From Eunapius fragilis (taxonomy: Eukaryota; Porifera; Demospongiae; Spongillida; Spongillidae): a stretch of 64,000 nucleotides of DNA. Made by a program: the position numbers and the translations under genes. Below the pieces are notes generated by a model, which saw only the letters and a program-made list of their open reading frames with translations, had not been told where the DNA came from and made no database searches. Location: the NCBI GenBank assembly GCA_963681505.1, contig OY811979.1, positions 4,627,473 to 4,691,472 on the forward strand. Reading direction: 5' to 3'. Positions 45-34,513 of the stretch are shown here, one piece after another; the stretch's first letter is position 1, and each line of letters opens with the position of its first letter.

Positions 45-1655
45 GCACTCTTCCAAGCAACAATAAATCTCATCCCCTCACCACAGATGACAAAGGGGAT
101 TGTGGGGGTATTAAAAAGGTTACATTCGAGATGGGTATGAGGAGTAGAGTAGGATCGTTTGAAACCAATCAAATTTTTAAAAGACTTTTAAGCAGTAGTG
201 GTTGCATGCTAAAACTTTTATACACATTCAAGAAGGGAACAACACACTCTTGTCAACGGTAATAAAAGCTGGACAGAGCAGGCAAGTGGTAGTACTCAAC
301 GATCAAGAAACAGACTATTCTCGCGAGGCTGTGGGCGCTCGCCGTTCTTTTGCGATTAAATTCACATTCCTTTCGAAAAAATGCAGGTTGTCAACCAAAC
401 GTGTGGTGCACGTCACTATACTTGAACGCTAAAATGTAAGGAATGTGCTACAAGCCAGTATATAAAAGTTTTATAGTACTAGCTTGCATAGCAATGACTA
501 CACTGTCCCACAAGATTTGCATATTCGATATGTTATACGGGTGGTTCTGAGCGCGTTATTGGCAAAACAAGAATGGCACGCTACAAAACAAGAAATTATG
601 GCACGCTACAATACAACCATTTTTAAGTTGGGGTAATGGATTGCAGAAAGAATCACTCGTCGATTCACTAGATACTGTCCCACCAAAAAGAGCGCACCCA
701 ACATTGGAAATTTTCGCTAAACTTGGGCAAAAATAAAATCACGCGGAGAACTCTCGATCCTGTAAAACTTGTTAAAATACACATATACAATAACCTGCAG
801 CTGCTTGCGTACTACAGTGAAACGTGCTTATCCATCTTTGTTCCAAAACGCCAGCGAATTTTCGTGCCCCTTTCACACTTCTATGTACGTGTGATTCACA
901 GCAGGTCGGATGGCACACATAAAATTGCAAATATCTATGGTCACGTGGCGCGTTGCCAATCCCTTTATATATTATCTCTGTACTGATCAATATTGCCGAC
1001 GAGCAAGACTCATTCATTCATTGTACTCACTTTGGCACAGCTGCCCGAGAATGCTGCTTTGAAGTACTGTAAAGGTCCACAGGGGAAGTATTGCGCTTGA
1101 TTTCATTTTCATCGTGGCACCAAGGATTATTAACTATTACTAGTATGGATATAATGGCACCATCCTCGTACGCAGACCGGACCAGTGACAGTTTTTTGTT
1201 GTAAGTTTCTGTTATGTTGTGTTTTGTTGCAATGCATCTACACTATAAATTTAAAATGGTTCTATTAGGCTTCACCAGTAACCGCTAATGTGTGATCAAA
1301 AACTCCGAGGACAAAAGGGGGGCGGAATAACGCGGGAAACTACATAATTTATCGTCGGCTTGCACGGCCTTTGTGTCTGGCTACCTCGCTTCGCATACGT
1401 ACTAGTAGTAGAGCTTCTGTCCGACTGAATTTCTACAGAGCGCACCAATGCCCACTGGGAGATGTACTTTTGCAGAAAGGACTAGCAAGCTTTCGTGACC
1501 TATCGCACGTAAGCGTAAATTTAAGTGGTGTGGTTGTGTCAGGCGTTAGCTGCATTTCCTTACACATCTAGCTTTATAAAATAATACTGTACATTCATGA
1601 ATCGTTTCTTCACTGGGAGATTATGTTTTGGACTGTTTTTGATATACATTTTTCC
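45..1655. other. no recognised gene
   Basis: AT-moderate sequence with only short, non-conserved open frames in all six frames (for example 202-432 and 723-986). I saw no domain, no credible splice chain and no RNA gene. The motif actgtccca occurs twice (about 502 and 676), matching part of the terminal repeat of the element at 38.7 kb, but with no further similarity that I could see. Confidence 0.6.
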
Positions 1656-1656
1656 G

Positions 1657-1683
1657 TAGCGGCGTAGGAAGGAGTTTAAAAAT

Positions 1684-1737
<54 letters not shown>

Positions 1738-1979
1738 GGGGGGGATGGTCATCATGGCGGGAGAGCGGTGCCCTCCCCCAGCCAGCTAGGGGAGTGCTGT
1801 AAGCTTCGGCATTGGGGTCTGGGGATGTGCCCCAGAAGCCAACGCTATTTGCATCTAACGACGTTACAAAACTACACTAGAATCAATGCAATTCATTACA
1901 AATTACGCATTTATCTGTAGTATCGCTGGTGTAAAAGTGGGGGGGCAATTGCCCCGCCCCCTCTATTCCTACGCCACTG
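1657..1979. mobile_element. MITE-like repeat with short inverted ends and an internal poly-G tract
   Basis: The left end reads gtagcggcgtaggaa (1656-1670) and the right end ttcctacgccactg (1966-1979), which is its inverted complement with one mismatch. Between them lies an uninterrupted G run of about 53 nt (1684-1736) and a second short G-rich stretch. The phrase cagtggcgtag recurs near 61618 beside another poly-G tract, so this is a dispersed family. No coding capacity is seen. The superfamily is unassigned because no clear target-site duplication is visible. Confidence 0.5.
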
Positions 1980-2224
1980 TTATGAAATTAGTAAACGTTA
2001 CATTTATTTTTAAAATTAGCTATAGAGAGATAAATGTTGTAAGTAAAAAAGAGCAGGCGCCGTTTCCACGATCATCGCAAGAATAAGTTTAGGAGAACTT
2101 CAAAAGGGTGTTTCTTGGATGAATTGCGTAAAGATATAAAAAGCTATCCTACATCAATCAATGTTGGATGGGTAGCTAATACGGATATCCAGCTATCTTA
2201 TTTGTGCTCTGGAGGTCTCATACA

Positions 2225-2512
2225 CCATTCGTAAGGATTATTCCCGTTGCAAAGATCATTCCCGTTGCATTACTTTTATTCCCGTCGCAATGCACTATTC
2301 ACGACGGAAATGATCTTTTGCGACGGGAATAATCGATTGCGACGGGAAGAGTGCATTGCGACGGGAATAATCTCTTGCAACGGCAATGACCCTTTGCGAT
2401 GGGAATGATCTATTGCGACGGGAATAATTCATTGCGACGGGCAGAGTGCATTGCAACGGGAATAATCTCTTGCGACGGGAATGACTCTTTGCGACGGGAA
2501 TGATGAATGGGA
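2225..2512. repeat. GCGACGGGAAT minisatellite, block 1
   Basis: Tandem imperfect units of about 17-19 bp built on ttgcgacgggaatgatc. The first few units are on the opposite strand (attcccgtcgcaa) and the array flips orientation near 2300, making a short internal palindrome. No conserved coding function is implied. Confidence 0.85.
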
Positions 2513-2884
2513 ATGATGGTCCAAACACAGGAGAAGAATTTTGAGTGTTCTGAATGTGGGAAGGTTTTTGGACAAAGGGGATATCTGTGTCGGATGTGTA
2601 ATTGTCATTTTTACCAGCAGGGACACCAGGTGGGGGCCGAGCTAAGGGGGCCAAGCCAGCATGAGAACCTCTGATGGGGGTGGACGGACGTCGTACCAAG
2701 TCCTACGGAGTGACACATGGACAGGCAGCAGAGTTGCCTGTCCTGGGGCCCTGGCATCGGGGGACAGTTCCATACCATCATAAGCATATGAAAAGATTTG
2801 CACTATACTTAATTCTATTTAATTTCAATACTACCAAAATAAAAGTTGTGCTTGCTGTAAATCATTACCAAAAGTATAATGTTA

Positions 2885-3200
2885 AACAGTTGCGACGGGA
2901 AGGGTGCATTGTAAAAGTAATGCGACGGGAATGTGGGTATAATCCATTGCGACGGAAATGAAAGTAACGGGAATGATCTGTTGCGACGGGACAAATCAAT
3001 TGCGACGGGATGTGTACATTGCAACGGGTATAAAAGTAATGCAACGGGAATGATCCTGTGCGACGGGAATGATCCATTGCGACGAGAATAATCCGTTGCG
3101 ACGAGAATGATCTATTGCAACGGGAATGATCCTTTGCAACGGAAATGATCTATTGCGACGGGAATGATCTATTGCAACGGGAATTATACGTTGCGATGGA
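2885..3200. repeat. GCGACGGGAAT minisatellite, block 2
   Basis: Same unit as at 2225-2512, in one orientation, about 15 imperfect copies. It is separated from block 1 by about 370 bp of unrelated sequence, so the array was probably split by an insertion or grew independently. Confidence 0.85.
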
Positions 3201-3320
3201 AATACACTTAAACGGGGGCGAAACGGGGCCGTATCGGGAGTCCTCTTTGTCCATTCCACAACTGTCAGTTCCTCTTTGTCCAGCCCACCACAGAGAGGTC
3301 CTCTGTTTCCACCCCACTAC

Positions 3321-4943: not shown

Positions 4944-5280
4944 ACATGCATGTTTTGAAGTGTTAGAGTCAGTGAGCTTAGGGTCGATCGAGTACAAAAC
5001 TTAAACCACTTAATAACATCGAGCGACAAATAATGAACAACGAATGAGAATCGTCAATATGATAACGGCGGGCCATGCATGTAAATGTACAACTACATGA
5101 CGCGGGGCGCGGAATTCAACAGCAGCGTGACGGGATTGTGTCAGGTAAATGGATCCCTGTCCTCCCCTGCCTCTCCTCTTGTCACTTCCACGTACATGTA
5201 CATGCACATGCACTCAGTGTGGTAGGGTGTGCATTATATATGAGACAAACGTATATGCGCATAATGACACACTGACGGTT

Positions 5281-5312
<32 letters not shown>

Positions 5313-5327
5313 TGCAGGTTTGCAAAT

Positions 5328-6323
5328 ATGTCGTGGTTTCTTCCGTTCTCTCTGTCTCCGGCCGTGAACAAACTCCTGGAGTGGCGACAGGATGAAGAAG
5401 ATGGCAAGTGGGCTGAGAAGGCCATCAACCTCCTCATCAGAAAGCTAAGTTCCAGGTTACATTCAATAGAAGAGCTCCAACGCGTCTTAGAAAATCCATC
5501 ATATCCCTCCGAATGTGTCACAATACCCCAGACGTTAGATGGAAGACTTCAGGTGGCGAATCGGAAAACCCTACCACATGTGATTTACTGCCGCATATGG
5601 CGCTGGCCCGACCTGCAGAGCCAATACGAACTGAGGGCGACCGATTCGTGCGCGACTGGCTACAGCAAAGACAACAAAGAAGTCTGCGTCAATCCCTACC
5701 ACTACCGTCGGGTGGAAGCACCCGGTAAGATAAGACATCAGCACTTGATTGTGCGGAGTCGATCCCCTTCACGTTCCTTGTATAATGCGGGATGATTACT
5801 AGATAAGGGCGCTGCAGCCACGTCGACGTTTATCCAGGACATAGTAGAGATTTATTAAATCCAATGCCCCAAGGTTAATAACTGGTCAAATCCCCACCCC
5901 CCTCCTTGACCTAATTCTAAAATACATCCCACTAGTGAGATGGTGGCCATTGATACCTTTTTGTTCGTCACCACTATGTTCTTGCATCTCTAAATTGAGC
6001 ATGCACTGAAGTTATTCTTCAAAAGCGTTGAGTTCATTCGTGGACACCCTCCTGCCAACATGTACTGACCCCATATGCAGGTCAACACTGCGCTTCAGAC
6101 TGGTAATAACTCAGAAATAAAGAAATATTGTACAGTCCACTATTGTAATTGGACGTTGTCATTCTTTAGTATTAATGCCCAAATGGTTTGCTGCCTTTCT
6201 TTGCTCTTCCAGTTCTACCCCCTGTCATGGTGCAGCGAAAACCTGCTTATCAATGCGGTATGATGTTGTCCCAAGCTATGTTAAGTCACTCAAGGCTGCA
6301 ATTCATAGTATATGTGTGTGTGT

Positions 6324-6354
<31 letters not shown>

Positions 6355-8702
6355 CACTTGCAATTTATAATTATTAATAACTGCATGGCATCTTAGTAAC
6401 TATCTCTGTATTGTAAAGACTATCTAAGAATGCTGTAATATCCCAATCCCAACACCCACAGTGCAATCACTTAAAGGCGTGCATACTGGGCACTAAATAA
6501 TGAAATATATGTGCAGAAAATGTATATGCATCATTATGTACAGTCAAGTCAATGATGGAGTCAGTACATTGTTGTAGTGAGTTCTTTTTCACAGGTATTG
6601 GATAATTGAAGGGGAGGGAAGCAAGGCTTAACCCTCACACCGTTTAGTGATCACCATGATATGTGTGTGAAGTGGCTGGCTACACTTTTTACTTTGCACT
6701 AATTTCTGGAGATGTAGGTCACTTAACACTAATACTTTTATGGTACTTTTATGATACCTTTGCTAGTCACTGAGATCAGATAAGCTGTAAAGAAGCAAAT
6801 GCAGAATGTGTATGTGTGGCGGGAGGGACCTTTTGAAGACCAATTAAGTAGCAAATGTCCAATACTTCATTATAAATACATGTGTAATCCTTAGAGGACA
6901 ATGATAGCCTTGTATGAACAAAGCTACTAACCTAATACATGTTGAATATAACCATGAATCTTTAGCACTGTACTGCAATTTGATCATTTGATGCTTAGTA
7001 ACATTTTTCTCTAAATACACTTAATTTTGTAATACTGATCCTATATGTTTGTCATACTGATGGATATTAAATCATGCATGAAAATTAACCCTGTTCACCT
7101 GATATTTTGTCCGTATATCATTGATGTATAAGGGACAAGTGTGATTCACTTGATATTTCTATAGTAATCATGATTGTGTGAAATCATTAATATTTATCTG
7201 TCAGTTTTAAAGTGTGGCTTGCAGGCAATTATATCCTTTGTTATTTACTACAGCGTCTTCCCGAATTTGGAACCCATTTTTTATGAGATTTTCACGATGT
7301 TTGATCATTAATAACTTCTGAACAGAAAAATTATATCTATGTAGAGTGCAATCATCAAGCTTTCAGAAAATATCAATTTTATGTACTAACAGTCATGAAA
7401 ATCTGGTACAAAACGGGTTCAAATTTCAGCAAGACGCTGTAGTAAATAACAAAGGATATATTTACCTGCAAGCCACACTTTTATAACTGACAGATAAATA
7501 TTAATGATTTCACACAATTAAAATAAAACATAAGTAGTGATAAAGCATAGATAGTTTCATTTCTGGCGTATTTTCTTTTGTTTTTTTAATTCATTCATAA
7601 TGATATATTCATATTACAGATCAAACAACTCAATTCCAGAAATTAACTCCTAAAACTGTGAACTCTTTGCTTGTCCCTTATATGCCCTTCATGAACTTAT
7701 GCAAGACATCAGGTTAAAAGTGTTTTGTGTTTGGGTTTACCTTTGGCACACAAAGAAGCTGTTTATGAATGAAAACAAAAATAACACTTTACAGGCTGAA
7801 CCTAATCCCATTGGATGAAATGTACTAACATGCAACTCTTTTGCAGTTGATTCAAATCTCCAATTGGTTGAAAACAATGATGTTTTTGACCAGGTTTGCA
7901 ACAACAGAAAGCATCTCTGGTACATAGCTTTCCTCCTACCTGCAAAGCATACCTTAAGACTGTCATTGATAATTGTACATCTACTGTTCCCTGAGAATAT
8001 ATTTATATATATTGTACCTGGCACGATAAATACTTCAGTTGTGTAATAATTCCACTGTTATTCTGCCTCTGGTTTATAGGTTGTCAACCTGTGCAAGTAC
8101 ATTTTGAAGAGGTGAATCATTGGTGCACCATCCAGTACTACGAGCTCAACCAGCAGGTTGGGGCACAGTTCAAACCCACTGCCATACAAGCATACGTCAA
8201 TGGCTACACAGACACCGTGATGAAAAACCACATGTGCCTGGGCTCTTTCACCAGCACAAGTCGTAACGATAAAACGGAATCAGTCCGCAAGCACATAGGA
8301 CACGGCGTCCAGCTCACCTATACTGGTGGTGAACTGTTTGTTGACTGCCTTAGTGAGTATGCCATTTTCATTCAAAGCAACACTATGGCCAGGTCACAGT
8401 GCTTACCAACCTCGTCTGTGATGAAGCTCCCACCCGGTGGTAGCACAAAGGTATTCAGCAATATGGAGTTTGCCAAGCTCTTTCATGAGACTGTGGACAA
8501 AGGGTACAGTGCCACTTTCAACCTCACCAAGGCTTGCTGTGTGTACTTGAGCTTCATTAAGGGCTGGGGACCAGAATACCATCGACAGGCCATCAACAGC
8601 ACACCGTGCTGGCTTGAGATCCAAATACACGGGCCGCTGGTGTGGCTTGACAGGGTCCTCAGCCAGCTGAGCCCCACCACCATGGTCAGCTCTAAATCTT
8701 AG
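5328..8702 (+). CDS. receptor-regulated Smad (R-Smad), 354 aa, three exons
   Basis: A TGF-beta/BMP signal transducer: activated receptors phosphorylate its C-terminal tail and it moves to the nucleus as a transcription factor. Exons: 5328-5724, 6213-6257, 8080-8702, with matching phases. A T-rich tract and AG at 5317 suggest a 5'UTR intron before the ATG. MH1 (residues about 1-132) has the DNA-binding hairpin region [11 protein letters not shown], the motif [13 protein letters not shown] and the zinc ligands in ECVTI, DSCAT and [10 protein letters not shown]2 (about 150-345) has the L3 loop region [10 protein letters not shown] and ends in SSKS, fitting the SSXS receptor-phosphorylation tail. 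The histidine in EYHRQ resembles BMP-type Smads, but the usual following Asp is Ala. The linker is only about 20 residues, without a PPxY motif. Total length is short for the family (usually 425-470). A piggyBac element begins just after the stop. Confidence 0.9.
6302..6354. repeat. (TG)n microsatellite in Smad intron 2
   Basis: Interrupted TG dinucleotide run inside the 1.8-kb second intron of the Smad gene. Confidence 0.9.
7173..7518. mobile_element. 346-bp MITE-like element with about 90-bp inverted arms, in Smad intron 2
   Basis: Left arm 7173-7265 and right arm about 7428-7518 are reverse complements with few mismatches. Both ends start attgtgtgaaatcattaat. The middle holds no open frame. 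It lies in the intron that separates the Smad linker exon from the MH2 exon, and largely explains why this intron is long. No unambiguous target duplication is seen. Confidence 0.75.
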
Positions 8703-8712: not shown

Positions 8713-8919
8713 CCCTCGAACAGCGACGGGCCACTATAGTGACCATACGCTAGCGCCTGCGCATTGCGGAAGGCCACTTTAGTGGCCAAGCGGGATGGCA
8801 TAATGTAAACGCGTAGCGCGGGCGTGTGTAAACAATTGCAGCTGCGCGCGGTTTGTTTACACAATAAAAACTGAATTCTACGCGTAGTGTGGCTTCCATT
8901 TGGGTGCATAGTTGCGGCG

Positions 8920-10833
8920 ATGAATAGAAGCAGGTCCCTTCCTTCGGACCCCGAATTCCTCCTCCAATACATGGAGGACATTGATAGTGACTGTAGCGAT
9001 GATGAATTCGATGGCTATGTTGATGATGATGTCATCAAGGCGCTCCCTGGAGAGATGAATGATGGTGGTGCAGCAATGGAGATGATGGATATGATAATGA
9101 ACGGGTGCAACATAGCTGCTGAAGAAGATGTAGTAATGGAAGGTGAAGAGGGTGGTGTGTTTGTGGATGAAGGAGATGAGGGTGTGGGAGCAGAGGGTGG
9201 TACAGTGCTTGTGTGTGAAGGAGATGAGGGTGTGGGAGCAGAGGGTGGTGCGTTTGTGGGTGAAGAAGATGAGGTGCATGCAGTGGAAAGTGACAATAGT
9301 GTGTCAAATGGAGCAGGTGATCCGCCAAGCAACAGAGGTGGTGGTAGCATCCCTGATTTCAATCAGCACAGTGGTGCAGTGAAGAACTTGGGCAGAATGG
9401 AGCCACTTGACTGCTTCTTTGAACTATTTCCTGAGGACCTAATAGAATACATAGTCATGGAGTCAAATAGGTATGGAAATCAGTACATCGTCAGCCATGC
9501 AGCACACCTGAGAAATCACCCCAAAGCCAGGGCACACCAATTTACACGGAACATGTTCACTCACCATGACTTGCAAAAGGTACTGGGCCTCATCATTTGT
9601 ATGGGTATTGTGAACATGCCAAGTGTTGAGCACTACTGGAGTACAAGATGGCCATTCAGCTCCAACAATTTTCGCTCAATTATGAGCCGGGATAGGTTCT
9701 TACTGGTGATGAAGTTTTTGCATTTGGCGGACAATTCAAGAATGATCCCAAGGGGGCAGCCAGGTCACAGCAAAATCTTCAAGGTTGAGCATGTAGTGAA
9801 GTCACTGGTACAGAATTACAAGTCCAGCTACATTATGAAGAAAGAAGTAAGTGTGGATGAGAGTATGATTGCATACAAAGGCAGACTTTCATTTCTGCAA
9901 TACATGCCCAAGAAGCCTCACAAGTGGGGTATAAAGGCTTGGGTACTGTCAGAGGCACACACAGGTTACACTTGGAACTTCCAGTTGTATACTGGAAAAG
10001 ACGAAACTAGGAAAGATGACACTCCTCTCAGTACCCATGTGGTAACCGAGCTCACAAAGGAACTAGAAGGGAAGGGTTACCATGTTTACATGGACAACTT
10101 TTATGCCAGTCCTATGTTATGCAAGTACCTTTATTCAAAGGGCTTTGGCAGTTGTGGAACTGTTCGATTGGACAGAAAGGGTATCCCACATTGGTTTAAA
10201 ACAGCAACTGTCAAGAAAGGGGAGATTGTAACATACAATGACCCTCCTGTTCTGGGACTAAAGTGGCACGACAAACGTGTAGTTGCACTCCTTACCACCA
10301 TACATGATGACAGCTTGATCTCCAAATCCCGATGGAAGAAAGGTGGTGGTGGCCAGCAAGCTGTACAAAAGCCAAGCTGCATTGAACAATATAACAGCCA
10401 TATGGGAGGTGTTGACAAGGCTGGTCAACTGCTACAATATTACGGCTGCACCATTGTGTCAAAGAAGTGGTGGAAGCGTGTGTTTTTTCACATGCTGGAT
10501 GTGACACTAGTGAATGCGTACATCTTATATTACACATCAGCAGTAGGCAAGCCAATGTCCCACCTTGACTTCAGGATTTCTGTTGCCAGAGGTCTGGTCA
10601 CTGCAGGAGAAGCGGAGATACCCGATTCTGCCTCATCTGTTCTAGGCTGCCCTATGCGATTGCTGGGGCGCAACCATTTCCCAGAACCAGCTGGAGGAAT
10701 GCCTGACTGTGTTGTATGCAGCAACAGACAGAATGGTAATAGAAAAAGGTCCAGCTACAGATGCAGCAGCTGCAAAGTTGCTCTGTGCGTGCACCCATGC
10801 TTTGGGAAGTACCATACTTTGAAAAACTATTAG
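8920..10833 (+). CDS. piggyBac transposase (PGBD4-like)
   Basis: A 637-aa cut-and-paste transposase that acts on TTAA sites. I chose the ATG at 8920 (MNRSRSLPSDPEF); the frame is open 33 nt further upstream but without another ATG. Residues 1-160 are acidic and low complexity, with a repeated GDEGVGAEGG segment. The DDE_Tnp_1_7-type core follows: the Asp of SVDESMIAYKGR, the Asp of VYMDNFYASP and the Asp of HMGGVDKAGQ correspond to the conserved catalytic aspartates, with YMPKKPHKWGIKAW between the first two. The last 50 residues form a cysteine-rich zinc-binding domain (CVVCSN, YRCSSCKVALCVHPCF) that in this family binds the terminal repeats. No stop or frameshift is present. Confidence 0.93.
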   Translation: MNRSRSLPSDPEFLLQYMEDIDSDCSDDEFDGYVDDDVIKALPGEMNDGGAAMEMMDMIMNGCNIAAEEDVVMEGEEGGVFVDEGDEGVGAEGGTVLVCEGDEGVGAEGGAFVGEEDEVHAVESDNSVSNGAGDPPSNRGGGSIPDFNQHSGAVKNLGRMEPLDCFFELFPEDLIEYIVMESNRYGNQYIVSHAAHLRNHPKARAHQFTRNMFTHHDLQKVLGLIICMGIVNMPSVEHYWSTRWPFSSNNFRSIMSRDRFLLVMKFLHLADNSRMIPRGQPGHSKIFKVEHVVKSLVQNYKSSYIMKKEVSVDESMIAYKGRLSFLQYMPKKPHKWGIKAWVLSEAHTGYTWNFQLYTGKDETRKDDTPLSTHVVTELTKELEGKGYHVYMDNFYASPMLCKYLYSKGFGSCGTVRLDRKGIPHWFKTATVKKGEIVTYNDPPVLGLKWHDKRVVALLTTIHDDSLISKSRWKKGGGGQQAVQKPSCIEQYNSHMGGVDKAGQLLQYYGCTIVSKKWWKRVFFHMLDVTLVNAYILYYTSAVGKPMSHLDFRISVARGLVTAGEAEIPDSASSVLGCPMRLLGRNHFPEPAGGMPDCVVCSNRQNGNRKRSSYRCSSCKVALCVHPCFGKYHTLKNY

Positions 10834-17514: not shown

Positions 17515-17610
17515 ACGTCGTTGCGTCGTGCAGAACCGACAACTGAATTTCACACACGTTTCGCCGTTTTAGCTAGACCCATCGCTACCGTGTGGAAGTT
17601 AGCCCCACAT
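17515..17610 (-). pseudogene. inverted degenerate copy of an integrase-gene exon
   Basis: The minus strand here resembles 13790-13858 (the exon encoding MGLKRRNVCE): both share gacccat, aaaacggcg and cgtgtgtgaaa or its close variant, and accgac. A small insertion shifts the frame. It is a decayed second copy, facing the functional one across the 210-aa gene. Confidence 0.55.
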
Positions 17611-17762
17611 TCCTCAGCACCACATTTAAGCATGAATAAGTTTAACATTCCTCAAGCGGCGGGCGTCCGAAACGAGCGCTTCTTAATATAGATCACGTTA
17701 TGAACGTAAGCAAACACTATGCAACGTGTTATATGAAGATGCTGTGAGCTAGTACTGTTGCC

Positions 17763-20700
17763 ACAGGGTAGATGTGTACCTGTGCCAACCATGGACTCAA
17801 GGTCACGTGCCGATCCTGAACACTGGACTAGCTTGGATCCAGAACACTGGACCAGCTGGGGTTACAAGCTGTTCCATGTACCCACAGGGTAGGTGAGTAC
17901 CTAAGCCAACCAGGGACCCAACGTCACGCGCAGATTCCGAACACTGGGGTGTGTGACCACAACTAATAAGTTCTTTCAAGCTGACCTGTGGAGACGGGTG
18001 CCATTCTTGTGAGTTGCAAAGCACACTGAATCTGACTCTGAGGTGTTTCATGTACCCACAGGGTAGGTGTGTACCTGTGCCAACCAGGAACCCAACGTCA
18101 CACGCGGATTTTGAACACTGGGGGTGTGACCACAACTAATAAGTTCTTTCAAGCTGACCTGTGGAGATGGGTGCCATTCTTGTGAGTTGCAAAGCACACT
18201 GAATCTGACTCTGAGGTGTTTCATGTACCCACAGGGTAGGTGTGTACCTGTGCCAACCAGGAACCCAACGTCACGCGCGGATTTTGAACACTGGGGGTGT
18301 GACCACAACTAATAAGTTCTTTCAAGCTGACCTGTGGAGATGGGTGCCATTCTTGTGAGTTGCAAAGCACACTGAATCTGACTCTGAGGTGTTTCATGTA
18401 CACACAGGGTAGGTGTGTACCTGTGCCAACCAGGAACCCAACGTCACGCGCGGATTTTGAACACTGGGGGTGTGACCACAACTAATATGCTCTTTCAAGC
18501 TGACCTGTGGAGATGGGTGCCATTCTTGTGAGTTGCAAAGCACACTGAATCTGACTCTGAGGTGTTTCATGTACCTACAGGGTAGTTGTGTCCCTGTGCC
18601 AACCAGGGACCCAACGTCACGAGTGGATTTTGAACACTGGGGGAGTGACCACAACTAATAAGTTCTTTCAAGCTGACCTGTGGAGACGGGTGCCATTCTT
18701 GTGAGTTGCAAAGCACACTGAATCTGACTCTGAGGTGTTTCATGTACCCACAGGGTAGGTGTGTACCTGTGCCAACCAGGAACCCAACGTCACGCGCGGA
18801 TTTTGAACACTGGGGGTGTGACCACAACTAATAAGTTCTTTCAAGCTGACCTGTGGAGATGGGTGCCATTCTTGTGAGTTGCAAAGCACACTGAATCTGA
18901 CTCTGAGGTGTTTCATGTACCCACGGGGTAGGTGTGTACCTGTGCCAACCAGGAACCCAACGTCACGCGCGGATTTTGAACACTGGGGGAGTGACCACAA
19001 CTAATAAGTCTATTCAAGCTGACCTGTGGAGATGGGTGCCATTCTTGTGAGTTGCAAAGCACACTGAATCTGACTCTGAGGTGTTTCATGTACACACAGG
19101 GTAGGTGTGTACCTGTGCCAACCAGGAACCCAACGTCACGCGCGGATTTTGAACACTGGGGGTGTGACCACAACTAATAAGTTCTTTCAAGCTGACCTGT
19201 GGAGATGGGTGCCATTCTTGAGAGTTGCAAAGCACACTGAATCTGACTCTGAGGTGTTTCATGTACCCACAGGGTAGGTGTGTACCTGTGCCAACCAGGA
19301 ACCCAACGTCACGCGCGGATTTTGAACACTGGGGGAGTGACCACAACTAATAAGTTCTTTCAAGCTGACCTGTGGAGATGGGTGCCATTCTTGTGAGTTG
19401 CAAAGCACACTGAATCTGACTCTGAGGTGTTTCATGTACACACAGGGTAGGTGTGTACCTGTGCCAACCAGGAACCCAACGTCACGCGCGGATTTTGAAC
19501 ACTGGGGGTGTGACCACAACTAATACGTTCTTTCAAGCTGACCTGTGGAGATGGGTGCAATTCTTGTGAGTTGCAAAGCACACTGAATCTGACTCTGAGG
19601 TGTTTCATGTACCCACAGGGTAGGTGTGTACCTGTGCCAACCAGGAACCCAACGTCACGCGCGGATTTTGAACACTGGGGGTGTGACCACAACTAATAAG
19701 TTCTTTCAAGCTGACCTGTGGAGATGGGTGCCATTCTTGTGAGTTGCAAAGCACACTGAATCTGACTCTGAGGTGTTTCATGTACCCTGTGTACCTGTGC
19801 CAACCAGGAACCCAACGTCACGCGCGGATTTTGAACACTGGGGGTGTGACCACAACTAATAAGTTCTTTCAAGCTGACCTGTGGAGATGGGTGCCATTCT
19901 TGTGAGTTGAAAAGCACACTGAATCTGACTCTGAGGTGTTTCATGTACACACAGGGTAGGTGTGTACCTGTGCCAACCAGGAACCCAACGTCACGCGCGG
20001 ATTTTGAACACTGGGGGTGTGACCACAACTAATATGTTCTTTCAAGCTGACCTGTGGAGATGGGTGCCATTCTTGTGAGTTGCAAAGCACACTGAATCTG
20101 ACTCTGAGGTGTTTCATGTACCTACAGGGTAGTTGTGTCCCTGTGCCAACCAGGGACCCAACGTCACGAGTGGATTTTGAACACTGGGGGAGTGACCACA
20201 ACTAATAAGTTCTTTCAAGCTGACCTGTGGAGATGGGTGCCATTCTTGTGAGTTGCAAAGCACACTGAATCTGACTCTGAGGTGTTTCATGTACCCACAG
20301 GGTAGGTGTGTACCTGTGCCAACCAGGAACCCAACGTCACGCGCGGATTTTGAACACTGGGGGTGTGACCACAACTAATAAGTCTATTCAAGCTGACCTG
20401 TGGAGATGGGTGCCATTCTTGTGAGTTGCAAAGCACACTGAATCTGACTCTGAGGTGTTTCATGTACACACAGGGTAGGTGTGTACCTGTGCCAACCAGG
20501 AACCCAACGTCACGCGCGGATTTTGAACACTGGGGGTGTGACCACAACTAATAAGTTCTGTGGAGATGGGTGCCATTCTTGTGAGTTGCAAAGCACACTG
20601 AATCTGACTCTGAGGTGTTTCATGTACCCACAGGGTAAGTGTGTACCTGTGCCAACCAGGAACCCAACGTCACGCGCGGATTTTGAACACTGGGGGTGTG

Positions 20701-21920
20701 ACCACAACTAATAAGTTCTTTCAAGCTGACCTGTAGAGATGGGTGCCATTCTTGTGAGTTGCAAAGCACACTGAATCTAACTCTGAGGTGTTTCATGTAC
20801 CCACAAGGTAGGTGTGTACCTGTGCCAACCAGGAACCCAACGTCACGCGCGGATTTTGAACACTGGGGGTGTGACCACAACTAATAAGTTCTTTCAAGCT
20901 GACCTGTGGAGATGGGTGCCATTCTTGTGAGTTGCAAAGCACACTGAATCTGACTCTGAGGTGTTTCATGTACCCACAGGGTAGGTGTGTACCTGTGCCA
21001 ACCAGGAACCCAACGTCACGCGCGGATTTTGAACACTGGGGGAGTGACCACAACTAATAAGTTCTTTCAAGCTGACCTGTGGAGATGGGTGCCATTCTTG
21101 TGAGTTGCAAAGCACACTGAATCTGACTCTGAGGTGTTTCATGTACACACAGGGTAGGTGTGTACCTGTGCCAACCAGGAACCCAACGTCACGCGCGGAT
21201 TTTGAACACTGGGGGAGTGACCACAACTAATAAGTTCTTTCAAGCTGACCTGTAGAGATGGGTGCCATTCTTGTGAGTTGCAAAGCACACTGAATCTGAC
21301 TCTGAGGTGTTTCATGTACCCACAGGGTAGGTGTGTACCTGTGCCAACCAGGAACCCAACGTCACGCGCGGATTTTGAACACTGGGGGTGTGACCACAAC
21401 TAATAAGTCTATTCAAGCTGACCTGTGGAGATGGGTGCCATTCTTGTGAGTTGCAAAGCACACTGAATCTGACTCTGAGGTGTTTCATGTACACACAGGG
21501 TAGGTGTGTACCTGTGCCAACCAGGAACCCAACGTCACGCGCGGATTTTGAACACTGGGGGTGTGACCACAACTAATACGTTCTTTCAAGCTGACCTGTG
21601 GAGATGGGTGCAATTCTTGTGAGTTGCAAAGCACACTGAATCTGACTCTGAGGTGTTTCATGTACCCACAGGGTAGGTGTGTACCTGTGCCAACCAGGAA
21701 CCCAACGTCACGCGCGGATTTTGAACACTGGGGGAGTGACCACAACTAATAAGTTCTTTCAAGCTGACCTGTGGAGATGGGTGCCATTCTTGTGAGTTGC
21801 AAAGCACACTGAATCTGACTCTGAGGTGTTTCATGTACACACAGGGTAGGTGTGTACCTGTGCCAACCAGGAACCCAACGTCACGCACGGATCCGGAACA
21901 CTGGACCAGTTGAGGGTGTG
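17763..21920. repeat. 173-bp satellite array, about 23 units
   Basis: Monomers of 173 bp recur at constant spacing (gtgaccacaactaata at about 17951, 18126, 18299, 18472 and on to 21737). Each contains ctcttgtgagttgcaaag-like sequence, gaggtgtttcatgtac, cagggtaggtgtgtacctg and aacgtcacgcgcgg. The first two and the last monomers are diverged; two internal ones are shortened (about 19785 and 20555). Because 173 is not a multiple of three, each monomer gives an 86-codon minus-strand open frame that is interrupted in the next. I treat these as non-coding. Variant monomers recur at fixed distances, see findings. Confidence 0.95.
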
Positions 21921-22357: not shown

Positions 22358-25300
22358 ATGCATAGACTTCTACATAGTCCCATTGCGTTTGTGCTTTTTG
22401 CAAGTTACTTTGTGATGGTAAGTTAACTTCAGCTTAAGTTTTGTTATTTTATTACTTTCATAGCCACCTATTAGACGAAAGCATAATTTTGAACCTGGTG
22501 CTCTTGTAAAGTACATTGCTGACACAGGGGAGACACCTCCAAAAGATGCATCATGCAATGGACCAAGTGGTTACTGGTACTTAGCTGCACAAGTTTTGTC
22601 TGGAAAATCAAATCCATCCTTCAAGTTTGTGGCAGCAGTTGCTTCATACTGGTACCACAAACGATCTGATTTATGTGTGCAAAAACAAATTGGTACAAGC
22701 CATCCCTGTCAGGTATATAAATTTACTTTTACAGTGTTAATGTATTAATGATGTTACAAAATTACTGATGAAAAACATGCAAAGCTATAATGTGGGTGTG
22801 TACACATGTTGTAATGAATATACATGTAGACCTGCACTAGAGACCAAGCAGGAAAACCAGTTCTGGTTACAGATGGAAAAGGGGCTGATCATGTACAAGA
22901 AGAGACCAGTAGTCATATGGATGAAGAGATTAACGAGAGTAAGGAGGAAGGAGCTAATGATGTAGAGACTGTGGATGAAGGACGAAGTGATGGTGTGGAC
23001 CAAGGATCTAGTAATGGTATGGACCAAGGACCTAGTGATGGTGTGGACCAAGGGCCTAGTGATGGTGTGGACCAAGGACCTAGTGATGGTGTGGACCAAG
23101 GACCTAGTGATGGTGTGGACCAAGGACCTAGTGATGGTGTGGACCAAGGGCCTAGTGATGGTGTGGATCAAGGACCTAGTGATGGTGAGGACCAAGACAA
23201 TGATGAACCTCATCCTGACCATATTGAGGACAACGACGATCATGAAGAGAATGCTGCTAACATCTACTGCGTGTGTGAAACACACTATGATCCTTCAAGG
23301 TTCGTTTTTGTTATTGTAATGAATACTATATAGTTTTCATAACACTTGCACTGAATGATTAGATTTATGATTGCTTGTGATTATTGTGGAGGCTGGTATC
23401 ACGGAGATTGTGTTGGAGTTACTGAAGACACAGCTTCTCACATAGAGACTTATAAATGTCCTGCATGTACGGCTGCTGGTGTTCTGAGACCCTTCTATAC
23501 AGATGGTTAGCACAGATATGAAGCATGATAGATAGATATACATGAATTTGTTTCTTACAGGGGCAATACAAAATCAAGACACACATCTTGATCTCATTCC
23601 GGTATATATGTAATGTATTGTAATGTAATGTAATGTAATCTATGTATGTATGTATGTATGTATGTATGTATGTATGTATGTATGTATGTATGTATGTATG
23701 TATGTATGTATGTATGTATGTATGTATGTATGTATGTATGTATGTATGTATGTATGTATGTATGTATGTATGTATGTATGTATGTATGTATGTATGTATG
23801 TATGTATGTATGTATGTATGTATGTATGTATGTATGTATGTATGTATGTATGTATGTATGTATGTATGTATGTATGTATGTATGTATGTATGTATGTATG
23901 TATGTATGTATGTATGTATGTATGTATGTATGTATGTATGTATGTATGTATGTATGTATGTATGTATGTATGTATGTATGTATGTATGTATGTATGTATG
24001 TATGTATGCATGTATGCATGGATGCATGGATGCATGGATGCATGGATGCATGCATGCATGCATGCATGCAGTGAAACACATCCTTGTTTAAGATAAATGA
24101 ATGTAGGTAATTAATAACTACAGGTTGATCCAGCTATCTCAAGAACGACTGCAGGCTGTCTTGCTCGATCTTCACATTTGCCTAATAGTAGCTCATTTAC
24201 TAAAATCAGTCTACAAGCAGGGTCCTTTAAAATTTCAAAATTGCAATGGGATGACACATTTGTCGGAGACAGTATAAAGCCATCATGGGTACATACCCTA
24301 GCTGATGGATTATTGCAACTGAACAAGTGCTGTTCATTTGCTTTCAAAAAGCACTGGAGAAAGAAATCAAATTCTCGCAAACAGTCGCTTGCAATTTTCA
24401 GGGCAACTGCATATTGCACATTTTCTACCTGTAATGTGATTGCTATACTTTCAGTCTCTAGTGAGGAAATCAATCCTGATAATGTGACAGTACGTGTAGA
24501 ATTTTCGGGAAATGTAGATCATCAGGTTGGTGAAACCCATGCTCGTCATTTCAGCAGTACCAATAGAAGCAAACTTCACCAGTGGTTTCAGAATACACAA
24601 GTCGCTCCATCTAAAGAGTACCTGAGCCGATTGATGAACCTAGAAACTGAGCAATATGCTGCAGGAAATAGAGATGGTGTGGGATGTTCGAAAGCAGTAA
24701 TTAGAAAAATTTCATCAGAGACCAGATTGCTGCAGCAAGATGATCGAGACTTGATCACATCCCTTATGATTTTACAACGCAAATTAATCAATGAAGATAC
24801 TGTGAGCTCTTCTAAATTTGGACTTCATCGCCCTGACTCACCAATTCCAGGTTATATTCAGTACATACAAGCTTCTCCATTTGGAGTTATATGTTTCAAT
24901 GAAACTGGTGTGAGACTCTACCATGAAGTTGCAAAATACTCTCCAGTTTTCTGTGATGCCACAGGTACAATAGTTACTGTTCCAAAGGATGTGGGCACAA
25001 AGCCTTCTGTGTGCTACTACTACAGTCTTGTAGTTAAGCATCCTGTTAGTGGCAAACCTCCTATTCCAGTTGCAGAATATATATCTTGTGACCAAACAGT
25101 ACTGGCAGTCAGTTCTTTTTTACAAAGTTTTAGACGGGCCGAAAGCTTATTGTTTGGCTCTGGTGCATCCATAAAACCCATAAGGGTCATAATTGATCGC
25201 AGCATTGTGCTACTTATCAGCTTTTTACATGTTTTTAACATGGAGACAGTTAATGATTACCTGTTACGAACATTTAGAATTGTTAGTGGTGCAGGACAAT

Positions 25301-28300
25301 GTAAGGATTTTGAAAAGATACTACCTCATGCCTGTACAAGTCACGTGATGAATTCGGCTAAAAAGGATTGCAAGAAATGGTAGGTTTAATGAATAATGTT
25401 TAAAAGCGTAATAATATTCACACTTATATGGAAGAGGTGTCTATGTCATGTCATTAATAATCACATTGCATCTATCATCATTTACTCAGGTTTAAGAATG
25501 AAGAATACTCTTTTTCCATGTTTTGCTTTTCAATTCTTGTTAACTCTACTACCTTAAAAGATTTGGTGATGCGACTTGGTCTGCTAAAATGTCTTTACTA
25601 CTCAAAGAAGGTGTCCATCAATATGAAATCTGCATATAACAGAATTGTTGATATTATTAATGATCTCAATAAGAAGCCACTTTTCCCTGATATTGTGAAT
25701 GATGATACACTCAGTGAATCAAATGAAGACTCGGAGCAGTTTAATAGTTTTTCTCATGATGAAATGTCACTTAAGTTGCAACCATTTAGCATGTACTTCA
25801 ATAGAAAAATGGAGGAAGTACATGTACATGATGATGATGATGATAATGGAGAGAAGGAGAATAGGAACTATAATCCTGACTATTTTAATGAACTTTTAAC
25901 GAAGTGGCTTCCAATGGCACCATTCTGGACATGTATGTTGCTTGGTAAGTGTTTAAAGTTTACAATGTAACCCACTTGTTAACTTTGCACATAAATAGGA
26001 AACCTTGATAGACACAAGGTGGAGAAACCATTGCCAATTACAACTATTGTAAGCTTTTATACAAGAATGCATTGTCTGCTGTTTATTGCCCTATTTAGCA
26101 TACAGAGTTAAGCAGAACTGCTGGGACTATAGAAGCATGGAATTTTATTCTAAAGAAGATTGACCATCCTCAGAAGCATTTAAGACCAGATGTTTTTTTG
26201 AGACAGCATTATCCCATCATCATTGCAAGACAGAGGCAGTTTTATGATGATATGCAGGATAAGCTACGAAAGCATGTAAAGGTATTGTGTGTTTTGACAT
26301 TAATGACAGTTAAATGAGTTTATCACATTTTTAGTTATCTCTTAAGACCAAACCTTCTCGCCCTTTGAAAGAGAAGTGGTCTAAACGGCCATTGAAGACA
26401 TCAAGAATTCATGGCCATTTCCAAAAGCCGTCAAAACCACTCACCCATATGTAAGCAAATGTAGTTTCTGTTGGACATTTGTCACATCTACATTGCAGAT
26501 GTCACACTGTAGAAAATGATACCCTAACAGCAGAGTTAAACACCACGAGTCTGACAGCTAAAAACGACCCCCCAACTAAAGAACTATGCAATGCAAGTGC
26601 AACACTAGAAAACATCACTACAGCTCCAGATCAACCAAATGAGTATGTGTGAACATTGTTAAATTCTATTCATTTTTTATCATTATAAGCAGCAAAGAAA
26701 TTGTTATGAACAAGACCAAAGAAGATGCCGATTTTCAGCATGTGTAAGCTGAAACAGACAATTGATGTAGTGACATACATCTTTGCATTACATGCATCAG
26801 AGTTGAAATTTCTTCCACCATGGAAAAGAAAACTGCTCATCAAACACAGTATGTTATAGGATAAGGTTTGATTGAAAAAGTATCTATGCTATGCTATGCC
26901 ATACTAATTGATGTATCTCTTTTCAAAACCGTTGGGCAAATTGTATTCATGTAGATAATTAAATTGGTGTCTAGTTAGAAATAATACTACAGCTCTTTCA
27001 TCATTACTCCACCTACAGATTTGCTGAAGACCAAGAGATTATGGTCGGTTTAATTTGAAAGTTAGCAGTGTTATTATGTATGTTATTCTGCACCCCTAGC
27101 CCCTTTGCATAGAATTGGACATTTCCAGAAGAGTGAACAAGGGACTGCATAATACAACATATACGTGTTGGATGAATGCTGCATTACAGGCTCTTGCTGC
27201 AACTCCATTGTATTTGATGATGAAGGGTAAGCCACCCATTTAAAACGAGATTCTGCTCCCTCTTACAAATAATCACATGGCATGCATGTAGCAATGGATG
27301 TGCAGTGCTTCAATTCTGTTCAGAAGGAATTTGTGAGTGTTATGGATGAACTTGAAACAAGTTCAGTTCACCCTTGCAATGCCTCAAAATTAGTTGTAAG
27401 TAAAATGAATTTTGTAGTGAATGATACTTTAGTAGCCAAATATAGCGTGCACTACAAAAGGAGAAAGCATACTCCCTCAACTGTGGATTGCAAAATGACT
27501 GTGTCGATGGAATAACAGCACTGCTTGAAGTACTGTTATCAGGATCAGAGGTATTTCATTACAATACATCCTTGTAAAGCATTAGTTTAAGATTAGTATT
27601 ATGTCAGATAGCAAACAACTTTAAGAAAGAATTCACAACAACAGTCAACAAAATGGCTACATGCTGTTCACAGGTGAAAAACCCTGTGTTTTATATATCA
27701 TTTATAATACATTATAAACCAGATAGTGCATGATTCTTCAAGTTGGACTGTGATTCCATTCAGCGCTGAAGGTCAACCAGAGGATATTAGTATGATGGAT
27801 ATACTGACCACCTGGCTTGATGCTTTGTTGGATAATTTGTGTACCCAAAAGTAGGTCTACAGGAATATGACTATGAATGCTGATATGTTTATCATATCAT
27901 GTGCAGGTTTTGTGATGTCTGTCACAAGCAATTAGCTGTTCAGGAGAAACACGTTTCATTTCCAAGCATATTGATTTTGAACTGCAGTAGGGTAAGTTGC
28001 AGTGTTCCAGCCAGAAAACTGAAAAACAGAATTAAAGTTCCAAGGTTTAATAATTGTTTTATGTGTGCTGTATTTAATAAATGATACACTATCCAGGGCT
28101 TGCAATCTTGCACACTCAAGTTCCCAAGAGAGCCATTTCTATCAGTTATGTGCAATCCTGGTTAGTAAAAATCAGCAAGTAGTTTGTTATTCCCCTTCAT
28201 ATCCACACATACAGGTGCACCATGGAAAAGACATTGCAGAGGGCCACTGTAAATGAATAAGAATATCTTTCATTTAATTTCATCCCATTGAATCAATTTT

Positions 28301-30121
28301 ACAGATACATGCTACGTGAAAAACAGAAAGGAGTGGATTCACTATGATGATTCATTGATATGTATAAAAACTACTACTGATTTTCATTCCTCAAGAATAG
28401 TTGAGGTTGTAGTGTTAAAATCATAACAGTCTTACAATGTAGCCTTTACATTTTTAGGAGAATGTATGTCTTGCAGTTTACACCACATCAATGTCAAAGG
28501 TAAGGGGGAAATGTGCAAGCAACACAAGATAGTAATAATACTTCTGCAGACATTTCTTCAAAGAGAGTTTACTATTCATCCTCCAAATGGAAAACTTGTG
28601 AGTTAGAATGCATGCATGCATTGAACATGAATATCCTTGAATGCCTAAACCAGATTTACAGCGGCCTACCATCAAGTATTGAAGCTGAGGTACTTAGGAA
28701 AATGCTTTTCAGATTTACATGCACCACGACTGTTTTCAAAAAGTTATACAACAAAGTTCCAGTACCAAACAAAGTGTTCCAACTTGAAAAGAATGCCTTA
28801 CAACAACTACTGTTTGACGATCAACTTGACTCAAAGGTATGGTATTAACCTCATCAGAAAAATTCTATGAAAACCCATGTAGATCATTTCTGCATACATG
28901 GAACTATTGCAAGAGGCTGCTACTAAGGTTTGCTTAATCATATTATTAAAGTTACATCTTATCATTCTTACAACAGAATGGGAAAAGAATTAAGGTCTTT
29001 GACCCAACATTTATTCCCCTGCTCAAAGCGCGAGGCTACCTATCAGTCAGAAGGCACTCAAAAGTGAATCACATGCATGAAACTACAATATGGCTTATGA
29101 GAATGCATTTTTGACTCTAGGGTGAGGATGTATGCAGCTACCAGAAACTGTTCTTTCCTGTACACAAACCAAATCATTGGAGTCTACTGGTAAACTTCAG
29201 TTTGTACCAGAGTTCAAAAGGTGATAAAACCTGATGATAAAATACTAGGTAGTCCATCCACAAGCTCAATTCATTCAAAGCTTTGATTCAATGCACTGTT
29301 CTGATGATGATGCTGTAAACTGGATTTGGTAAGCTAGTGGCACAAAATTCTTAATGTACAAGTCAGTAAAACATTTCTATGCTATATAGGCTGTACCTTT
29401 GCAATGAAATGCAACATAGAACGAAGTTACACCTCAGTCATTTAGACTGGAAGTATTCTGATTCAATAGTATTCAGTGCCTTGCATGGAGTTGTAATGTA
29501 CTCTAATAAGGGATTTTCCAATGATGTAGGCCAGCAATTCACCAAGGCAAACCAATTCATATGACTGTGGAGTTTGTGTGTGTCTTGTAAGTTTTGATTT
29601 CAACACTCTATGAAAGCATTCTTAACCATGCATAATATTATACAGGCAGCAAGATTGCAAGTGGAAAGCCAGGACTGCGTATTCACACAAGTAGGATATA
29701 AAACACTAAGCACTAGGCATAATAGAAGCTTATCCACAGAAAATGATGAGTTGCTTCAGAAAACAGATTGCATTTGAATTGTCCGTTGGTGCACTTTATC
29801 CACTGCAGAAAGCAGATGATGATGCACTTCAAGGTGAAACACACCCAGTTGTGTCGTGTAAATACATGTGTATAGTTGTAAACTTTTTCAGGAGTGACTG
29901 AATGTCATAGTGTGAATGAAGTAGATGGTGATGACGATGATGATGACATCGAAATTGGAAGCCCTATATCTTTGAATTCTGATATTCATTCTGATGACTT
30001 TTTGGTTCCTGACTTCGAAAATCCTGGTCCTGACCCTGATGACCTTACTGCCCTGAAGTGGGGACGAGACCACTATATCAGAAGTTTCCCACATCATCTT
30101 CTGAAGAGGAAAGAAAGGTAA
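22358..30121 (+). CDS. giant multidomain gene: PHD finger, MULE/NOF-like transposase, USP (C19) protease, Ulp1-like (C48) protease
   Basis: About 33 exons join in one phase to about 1,740-1,760 residues without a stop. Exons begin at 22464 (perhaps 22358), 22830, 23363, 23561, 24124, 25490, 25999, 26099, 26335, 26499, 26690, 26801, 27019, 27113, 27292, 27446, 27608, 27723, 27907, 28097, 28215, 28305, 28458, 28564, 28883, 28977, 29121, 29249, 29390, 29530, 29646, 29740, 29892. Order: acidic DQGPSDGV repeats; PHD finger (YCVCETHYD, CDYCGGWYHGDC, KCPAC); DDE core with FCDATGTIV, VIIDRSIVLL, CTSH and RTAGTIEAW, as in MULE/NOF transposases; USP with Cys box TYTCWMNAALQ, LQNDCVDG, His box AEGHYTCYV and HYDDSLI; Ulp1 with NHWSLL, SFDSM and QTNSYDCGVCVCL; acidic tail. 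Likely roles: DNA transposition plus ubiquitin and SUMO deconjugation in the nucleus. Splice sites are by eye. A split into two genes near 28.5 kb is the main alternative. Confidence 0.8.
22990..23195. repeat. coding 24-bp minisatellite
   Basis: About eight to nine copies of a 24-bp unit (ggtgtggaccaaggacctag plus tgat) in frame within the second main exon of the giant gene, giving the octapeptide DQGPSDGV. Unit length divisible by three keeps the frame when copy number changes. Confidence 0.9.
23637..24070. repeat. (TATG)n microsatellite in an intron
   Basis: About 90 tetramers of TATG, ending in GCATG/GATGCATG variants, inside intron 23602-24123 of the giant gene. Open frames over it (MYVC or IHTY repeats) are artefacts. 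Confidence 0.97.
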
Positions 30122-30349
30122 TGAGAAAATGTGTGCAATTGTTTCTTAGCTTTAGCTCCAATACTCATCACAAATGAAGTGAATCACCATTTACACACAG
30201 CAAATAAAGAAAAGTGCATGTCACTAGATAAACTTAGTTGTCACTCGAAATAAAACTAGTGACAATAGTAATGAGTGACATACACTTGTAATTGTGTACC
30301 GCAAAAACAAAATGATGCATGACACTAGAAGAAACATACCGTAAATGTA

Positions 30350-33105: not shown

Positions 33106-34127
33106 TCAGGAGAGGGTGCGGGTCTGATGGTCAGGGTAGAAGTTGATTGCCCTCGGACGGTCTCCATTCTCCTTGACAAAGCACCTGTGAGTCTGGGTAC
33201 CAGGTGCCGAATGTACACTGGCCCAACAGTGCTCGCAGTAGTATCTGAGGCAGTGGATGTTTCCGCAGAAGTACGGGGCCAGTCTACCCCCGCATTGTAC
33301 ACCGTGACATTCATCACACATCTGGTCATCTAAAACGTACGGCTTTACTTCCACCTTCTTGTCAATATCTCCATACGTCACCTGGAAGAACCGACATGAC
33401 ACAGCACTCATGAAGCTGACCCGTGAGGAGAATGTGACACGCCCAGCACCTTTGGGATACTTCAGCTCTGGGTCAACGTCAATGCCTGCATAGCAGACGT
33501 TGCCGTATCTCGAGTTGAAGATGTCTGCCAACTCGTGGGCCTTGAGGGGGCGTGGTACACCCCCGATGATGATGGTCTTTCGGGGATCAATGGGTTGGGA
33601 ATGGTCCATGATGAAATCGCTGTCTGTTATCTTCCATGGACGAATCTGCACCTTCTTGTTGATCTGAGTGACGCTGGATACAAAGAGGTACAGTTTACCT
33701 TCCTCACTGGCACAGCTCTTGACAAGCCGCTGGACAGATGACTCCTCTCTGAAGAGAAGAAATGCATACCCTTTGGGTGGAAAATACGCTTTGGACTGAG
33801 CCTTGTGCGGCCAATCCACTGTGAGGTGACCGTACCGCACGAAGTGCTCTTTGATTTCATCTTGGTCAATATCAGGCGGGAGACCTCCCACGAATACTTT
33901 CCTCGAATACATTTCGTGTGCCGGTGGATGCGATCCGGACGGTGTGTTAATGGTAGTAGCGAAGGGACTCGGTGTTCGTGAACCACTGGAAATACTGCGT
34001 TCGTCTTGCGAGCGTGCCGGGTGGTCGAACCAGCAGTAGTCAAGGGCCGCACCTAGCCTGCATCTGTTCAACATTTCACTTAGGGGGCTTGTGTTTGGAA
34101 AAATTAGCGTCATTGTGACGTTAACAT

Positions 34128-34165
<38 letters not shown>

Positions 34166-34513
34166 ACCCCTAAGCGTCATAGCGTTTTTAGTAGCATGAA
34201 ACATTACTCAATGTGCAGTGTAGTCTGAATAGACGTAACTGCTGCCACTGGAGTTAACGCTGCCGCTAACTAGATGTTCCGTATTATAAAACAATACTTG
34301 TGGACAATAAAATTTTTCTTAACGTCACAGCCTCCCCCCCCCCCCCCCCCCCCTAACGTCACAATGACGCTAATTTTTCCTAACGTAGTTTGGACAAGCC
34401 CCCTTAGAAGCCTCTCGCTGCTGGAAGGCTGCCACGGTTTCATGGTATCCAGGGCGCAGGTGAACGAACTGCCAAGCGACATGGCCGATGGTCCCCAAAC
34501 GCCAAATGGGTCC
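33106..34513 (-). CDS. CPEB2-4-like RNA-binding protein, terminal coding exon interrupted by a MITE
   Basis: CPEB proteins bind U-rich elements in mRNA 3' UTRs and control cytoplasmic polyadenylation and translation. The downstream part (33106-34113) has RRM1 (KVFVGGLPPDIDQDEIKEHF, KGYAFLLFREESSVQ), RRM2 (KTIIIGGVPRPLKAHELA, GAGRVTFSSRVSF) and the cysteine-rich ZZ-type domain (DDQMCDECHGVQCGG, YYCEHCWASVHS), ending LVKEN-like and a TGA. Upstream, 34404-34513 follows a long pyrimidine tract and AG on the minus strand (a good acceptor) and encodes GVWGPSAMSLGSSFTCALDT. A 321-bp MITE (34083-34403) lies between. Removing it with one TTA joins SSSERLL to SEMLNRC in frame. A start inside the MITE (MTLIFPNTSPL) would give a 335-aa product. 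Earlier 5' exons are not found in this window. Confidence 0.85.
34083..34403. mobile_element. 321-bp PIF/Harbinger-like MITE inside the CPEB exon
   Basis: Perfect 10-bp terminal repeats GGGGGCTTGT / ACAAGCCCCC are flanked by TTA on both sides (34080-34082 and 34404-34406). The similarity extends inward: aaaattagcgtcattgtgac on the left matches the complement of the right arm. A poly-C run sits inside each arm. A 3-bp TTA duplication fits the TWA preference of Harbinger elements. Confidence 0.8.

Follow-up and report, generated by a model that had tools for sequence, protein, structure and literature searches.

Gene structure and predicted product

The window analysed here is a stretch of 64,000 nucleotides from the sponge Eunapius fragilis (contig OY811979.1, positions 4,627,473 to 4,691,472 of the forward strand). 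It holds a 35-exon gene, very probably the gene of a transposon in which a PHD finger, a DDE transposase, a deubiquitinase of the USP type (peptidase C19) and a Ulp1/SENP peptidase (C48) are encoded together. The gene lies on the + strand, opening with the ATG 22415 and closing with the TAA 30119–30121, and its 5181 nt of coding sequence translate into 1726 aa with no internal stops. All 34 introns had GT-AG borders. Thirty-three of them measured 40–170 nt, and intron 5, by far the longest with 522 nt, contained a GTAT microsatellite of 467 bp (23602–24068). The terminal TAA sits just past a GT donor (AAAG/GTAATG).

An earlier interpretation of the letters alone (the sequence-only reading) had traced about 33 exons sharing one continuous phase over 5.2 kb of coding sequence. 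The phase and the length were confirmed, and the exon count rose to 35. The premature stops that it had named as a way to overturn the chain were absent from the window's spliced 1726-aa frame. It had placed the start at 22358, where the ATG overlaps a TATATAA motif; ATG 22415 is probably the better start. A single transcript would be expected to span all four domains.

The automatic splice model was corrected by hand at the exons carrying the USP His-box and the C48 Cys-box, so that these borders are motif-guided. The correction raised the Pfam UCH score from 9.6e-14 in an early draft to 1.9e-26 in the final product. The corrected borders are supported by the near-identical copies described below, which are collinear with the gene, and by exon sizes that recur in two diverged elements of the same genome, C5a and C12: the lengths 138-64-34-101 and 45-87-69-80 nt were common to all three, the spliced models of C5a and C12 being themselves guided by the window protein.

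Three of the four domains matched Pfam families above the curated cut-offs (Table 1), and the fourth, the transposase, matched none. Profile searches, which the sequence-only reading had proposed, thus bore it out for PHD, UCH and Peptidase_C48 and not for a transposase family. The solved structures nearest to the PHD finger were BPTF, PHF2, CXXC1 and PHF8. In the alignment it holds Y, Y and W at positions of the aromatic cage of BPTF, with M at the third position, as in PHF2, which suggests a finger of the H3K4me3-reading type.

In the transposase, the first aspartate was conserved in 36/37 rows with a residue at the site, the second in 34/34, and the CxxH motif in 29/30. The alignment comprised 38 rows from 40 relatives found, with two proteins, P0003 and P0004, left out. 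The glutamate was present in the window, in P0002 of Actinia tenebrosa, in C5a and in C12.

The nearest solved structure was USP36 (1.3e-9) for the USP domain and SENP2 (2.8e-20), followed by SENP1, for the C48 domain, whose active-site residues aligned to those of SENP2. The Cys box, His box and Asp/Asn of C19 and the His, Asp, Gln and Cys of C48 were all found. Both peptidases are probably active. The motif sets of PHD, C19 and C48 recognized earlier in one chain were recovered as Pfam matches, and those of C19 and C48 also as catalytic residues.

Table 1 Features of the element in the window, in window coordinates (TIR, terminal inverted repeat).
Feature	Position	Strand	Evidence
5' TIR, starts ACCGTGTGGAAGTTAGC; left end of element	17587..17626	+	start of homology with the C4 copy
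Subterminal minisatellite, 173-bp unit x 23.5, 5' side of gene	17870..21904	.	TRF
Putative TATATAA motif, upstream of start codon	22351..22357	+	read in the sequence
Exon 2, conserved N-terminal region of unknown fold	22464..22712	+	tblastn: 33% identical in C5a, 42% in C12
Coding minisatellite, 24-bp unit x 9.5 (GVDQGPSD repeats)	22970..23196	+	TRF
PHD finger, aa 230-276, split by intron 23300-23362	23265..23468	+	Pfam PF00628, 2.7e-7
DDE transposase, exons 6-9	24124..26281	+	conserved D/D/CxxH/E, predicted RNase-H-like core
Transposase residues D580; D660; C706/H709 (CxxH); E901	24955-24957; 25195-25197; 25333-25344; 26132-26134	+	
USP (peptidase C19), exons 15-24	27100..28499	+	Pfam UCH, 1.9e-26, aa 1093-1357
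USP residues C1101; H1333; D1348	27166-27168; 28245-28247; 28346-28348	+	
Ulp1/SENP peptidase (C48), exons 26-34	28654..29833	+	Pfam Peptidase_C48, 3e-17, aa 1454-1632
C48 residues H1521; D1538; Q1592; C1598	29175-29177; 29285-29287; 29548-29550; 29566-29568	+	
Exon 35, conserved acidic PDPDD...KWGRDHY tail	29892..30121	+	tail kept in P0001, C5a and C12
Truncation point, homology with C4 and C18 copies ends	30195..30196	.	3' minisatellite and 3' TIR missing

Copies, relatives and element ends

The genome searched comprised 24 contigs (219 Mb), the window being C9:4627473-4691472. Exon 6 was found in eight copies at 97–100% identity on six contigs, the window included, and in many more at 50–64%. 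Of 105 transposase matches, the first 44 entered the counts of domain linkage and of copies enclosed by TIR pairs; the other 61 were weaker or fragmentary. On the same strand as these 44 copies, PHD was found upstream of at least 39, and USP, C48 and the acidic tail downstream of at least 39, at least 21 and at least 31, respectively; all four counts are lower bounds, resting mostly on one match per locus. Flipping the strand gave 0 for each domain, and shifting positions gave means of at most 0.045. A genome search for further copies with the same domain order had been proposed with the sequence-only reading, and PHD and USP matches indeed flanked most of the 44 copies, with C48 matches beside at least 21.

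Two near-identical copies, on C4 and C18, were collinear with the gene in 35/35 exons and 98.4–100% identical outside exon 3. Their only exon indels, of 24 and 96 bp, fell within the 24-bp coding minisatellite, indicating that the exon chain is not due to chance. The joined frame was open in the C4 copy, with one donor altered, and interrupted by two in-frame stops in the C18 copy.

The diverged elements gave spliced models of 1602 aa for C5a (C5:1166407-1178982, flanked by a target site duplication) and 1462 aa for C12, with 771/1566 and 726/1428 aligned residues identical to the window protein. At this identity of ~50%, both held all four domains and the catalytic positions, except for USP D1348, which is N in both. 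The N-terminal exon of C12 was found by tblastn and is absent from its spliced model. The ratio of nonsynonymous to synonymous differences per site (pN/pS) between the window and C5a was 0.27 for PHD, 0.35 for the transposase, 0.53 for USP and 0.43 for C48, with pN of 0.23–0.42 over the domains and a saturated pS of ~0.8; these values come from protein-guided alignments, which favour conserved positions. They suggest that the gene of the element is under purifying selection.

Among proteins, three of the four matches of the first search came from the freshwater sponge Ephydatia muelleri: P0004 carries that name, and P0001 and P0003, both 'Em' gene models, are presumably from the same species. 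The predicted P0001 joins the transposase with UCH (2.4e-5) and C48 (1.2e-18), and P0004 matches residues 1–70 of the window protein almost perfectly. In Actinia tenebrosa, the predicted P0002 has the transposase and, after it, the beginning of a UCH domain (E 2.6e-4, just below the cut-off). When the peptidase half alone was used as a homology query, no match reached E <= 1e-5, not even that of P0001, owing to fast divergence or a miss of the word filter. The PHD, USP and C48 domains, the domain order and the single phase, as read earlier from the letters, are supported by Pfam, by the copies, by the diverged elements and by the genome-wide linkage.

A scan of the window for inverted repeats found no pair flanking the gene, because the 3' TIR has been lost here; the TIRs were revealed by the copies. 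In the C4, C18 and C1 copies, the forty bases at 17587 recurred at the opposite end in inverted orientation, with three mismatches. The 34-base inner TIR pattern, with up to three mismatches, occurred at 113 places in the genome, and the reversed pattern used as control at 0. Among 30 of these places that were fetched, we found 12 end pairs, all 12 with TIRs of 41–52 bp and at most four mismatches. The target site duplication (TSD) was an exact 9 bp in 8/12 pairs, 8/9 in one and an 8-bp repeat, seen by eye, in another, and two pairs had none, while the best of 132 mismatched end pairs used as control reached 6/9. The window's own subfamily contributed three of the pairs, namely the 8-bp case and both failures; no TSD was found at the ends of the C4 and C3:2304127 copies, where it was sought. 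Among the 100 of the 113 TIR places that were listed, inverted pairs within 16 kb enclosed 16/44 transposase copies.

Besides the enclosed genes, short inverted TIR pairs were present 1.2–1.4 kb apart (e.g., C1:7187858-7189028 and C3:7595542-7596912), likely non-autonomous elements moved in trans. Two TSD-flanked elements, C2:16607276-16615485 and C4:9450211-9458102, had USP and C48 matches and no exon-6 match among the matches listed. They probably arose by deletion, with the peptidase half retained.

The 173-bp repeat also precedes the gene in the C18, C1 and C4 copies and in Ephydatia P0004. At the other end, the C4 and C18 copies run on beyond exon 35, with extra coding sequence matching residues 1193–1269 of P0001. 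In the C4 copy this is followed by a minisatellite (153-bp unit x 8.3) and then by the 3' TIR. The window copy lacks the last exons, the 3' minisatellite and the 3' TIR of the longer copies, and downstream of 30195 there is other repeated DNA. The element is a recently mobile DNA transposon, of which the window holds a 3'-truncated copy. This copy could be expressed and probably cannot move itself.

Elsewhere in the window, a Smad-like gene with MH1 and MH2 exons (3.9e-34 and 2.1e-53) was found, its ranges 5268–5795 and 7995–8702 being listed together with 8875–10833. On the same strand as the MH2 ORF (open reading frame), and starting 173 bp past it, lies a piggyBac-type ORF of 651 aa (DDE_Tnp_1_7, 2.4e-92). 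A single-exon ORF on the minus strand (33106–34128) encodes RRM_7 and CEBP_ZZ, the C-terminal part of CPEB. At 34093–34384 there are two inverted repeats of 31 bp, separated by 230 bp.

Resemblance to Mutator and to known peptidase-bearing elements

We place the element near the Mutator superfamily, closest to Rehavkus by description. The 9-bp TSD, the TIRs and the DDE triad with CxxH between the second D and the E are all present; a CxxH at this place marks Mutator-like elements (MULEs), whose TSDs measure 8–10 bp, typically 9. The predicted RNase-H-like core was nearest to the ISCth4 transposase, with 10% identity over 103 residues. ISCth4 is a bacterial transposase of the IS256 family that is not known to carry extra domains. 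The IS256 family is kin to Mutator. Weighing against this placement, the transposase part matched no Pfam transposase family up to E 5. A sequence profile search against solved structures gave no meaningful match for it, and Foldseek by itself listed no structure at E <= 0.001. Because no curated MULE profile matched, we call the element Mutator-like rather than a member proven by sequence. The earlier MULE/NOF-like label is upheld in this sense, by the 9-bp TSDs and the CxxH insert and, more tentatively, by the predicted core.

Rehavkus, a Repbase group next to Mutator, is described in PMC6446971 as having a 9-bp TSD, TIRs of 26–400 bp, a PHD finger and a minisatellite before the 3' TIR. Compared by description only, the element resembles it in the TSD, in a PHD finger accompanying the transposase, in the TIRs and in the minisatellite before the 3' TIR, which is the 153-bp repeat of the C4 copy, lost in the window copy. 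The hosts named there are arthropods and annelids, and the table row for Rehavkus lists no peptidase, whereas here the host is a sponge and the protein includes USP and Ulp1.

Other transposons share part of the domain set. Hydra, lancelet and plants have Mutator elements with Ulp1, as recorded in the relevant part of PMC2836005. The plant cases include KAONASHI/KIU, where KIU is one of three genes of its element and not part of the transposase (PMC13317346, section on these elements). These elements share the superfamily and C48 with ours, and the passages describing them mention no USP. The Ginger1-9_HM transposase protein has a C-terminal Ulp1 and a PHD finger (PMC2836005, Table 1); it differs by its Gypsy-integrase-type transposase, and USP is not mentioned in its entry. 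For Trichomonas vaginalis the same source gives a transposase that also carries peptidase C19 (XP_001314237.1), a protist protein that differs in belonging to the transposase_11 family, with neither PHD nor Ulp1 mentioned in that entry.

A Ginger1-like ORF of 648 aa was also found in the E. fragilis genome (C1:7240300-7245300, minus, 1373–3319), with a Gypsy-type integrase end, Ulp1 and PHD. Ulp1 and PHD thus accompany two unrelated transposases in one and the same genome. PHD and C48 matches of equal score occurred together at six further places, on C2, C4, C5 and C6 and twice on C20.

We found no report of PHD, transposase, USP and Ulp1 together in one open-access library, subscription papers and Repbase lying outside the search. 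Nor did the open-access texts, as far as their accessible parts go, report USP and Ulp1 together with a transposase, and a text find in the searchable part of PMC12062965 gave no match for the domains of the element. This agrees with the sequence-only reading, which had described the combination as one not known to it.

Possible roles of the peptidases

The explanation that we favour overall, with moderate confidence, is a Rehavkus-like transposon with PHD targeting and USP/SENP-like removal of ubiquitin and SUMO. The transposase would cut at the TIRs and insert with a 9-bp stagger. The PHD finger would hold the complex at active promoters by binding their H3K4me3 chromatin. At the element or its target site, the USP and SENP-like domains may strip ubiquitin and SUMO from silencing factors, histones or the transposase, and the loss of these tags may counter SUMO-dependent silencing and degradation of the transposase. 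SUMO is needed for transposon repression in Drosophila, as stated in part of PMC7676866. That the peptidases shield the transposase or loosen SUMO- and ubiquitin-based silencing, as suggested earlier, is plausible; that counter-silencing is their main role is a nearly balanced question, on which we lean slightly to the negative.

The main rival, rather unlikely in our view, holds that the peptidases mainly serve the transposase or break repair, taking tags off the transposase or repair factors and not acting on chromatin silencing. A repair role was proposed by Bao et al. for the Ulp1 and OTU domains of transposons (in the corresponding part of PMC2836005), and a domain in cis would naturally act on its own chain. 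However, a role in repair or stability alone leaves the H3K4me3-type PHD finger unexplained. It is improbable that the locus makes two or more proteins, with internal promoters or alternative ends parting PHD-transposase from USP-Ulp1. The linker exons 11–14 are short and have weak donor scores, and the two putative deletion derivatives have peptidase matches but none to exon 6 among the matches listed. Against this, one phase runs through in three elements, and E. muelleri P0001 and Actinia P0002 are predicted as joined proteins.

Mutator elements are prone to acquiring host gene fragments (PMC6446971, in the part on this superfamily), and the USP and SENP regions could be host pieces captured as nonfunctional, Pack-MULE-like passengers. 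We reject this as very improbable: USP lies beside at least 39/44 and C48 beside at least 21/44 copies, the active sites are kept at ~50% aa identity, and the pN/pS of the peptidases is 0.41–0.53. Least credible of all, and likewise rejected, is a domesticated host gene containing an old transposase. A long multi-exon gene under purifying selection would fit it, but near-identical copies on six contigs, TIR pairs around copies and exact TSDs do not.

The favoured reading, a Rehavkus-like transposon with targeting and tag-removing domains, would point to such elements beyond the two groups that PMC6446971 names, arthropods and annelids. More speculatively, and with considerable doubt, early-branching animals may harbour self-protecting elements, in which the PHD finger docks the transposase at active H3K4me3 promoters and a fused deubiquitinase and deSUMOylase strip the marks set on the element or its transposase by host silencing and protein-quality pathways. 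Ubiquitin-like proteases, Ulp1 and OTU among them, have turned up repeatedly in transposons of unrelated kinds. A deubiquitinase and a SENP-like protease fused to a transposase and a histone reader, in many copies, provide a natural test case for the retention of such proteases, and the domain combination gives a hint of the way in which these elements may interfere with the silencing machinery of their hosts.

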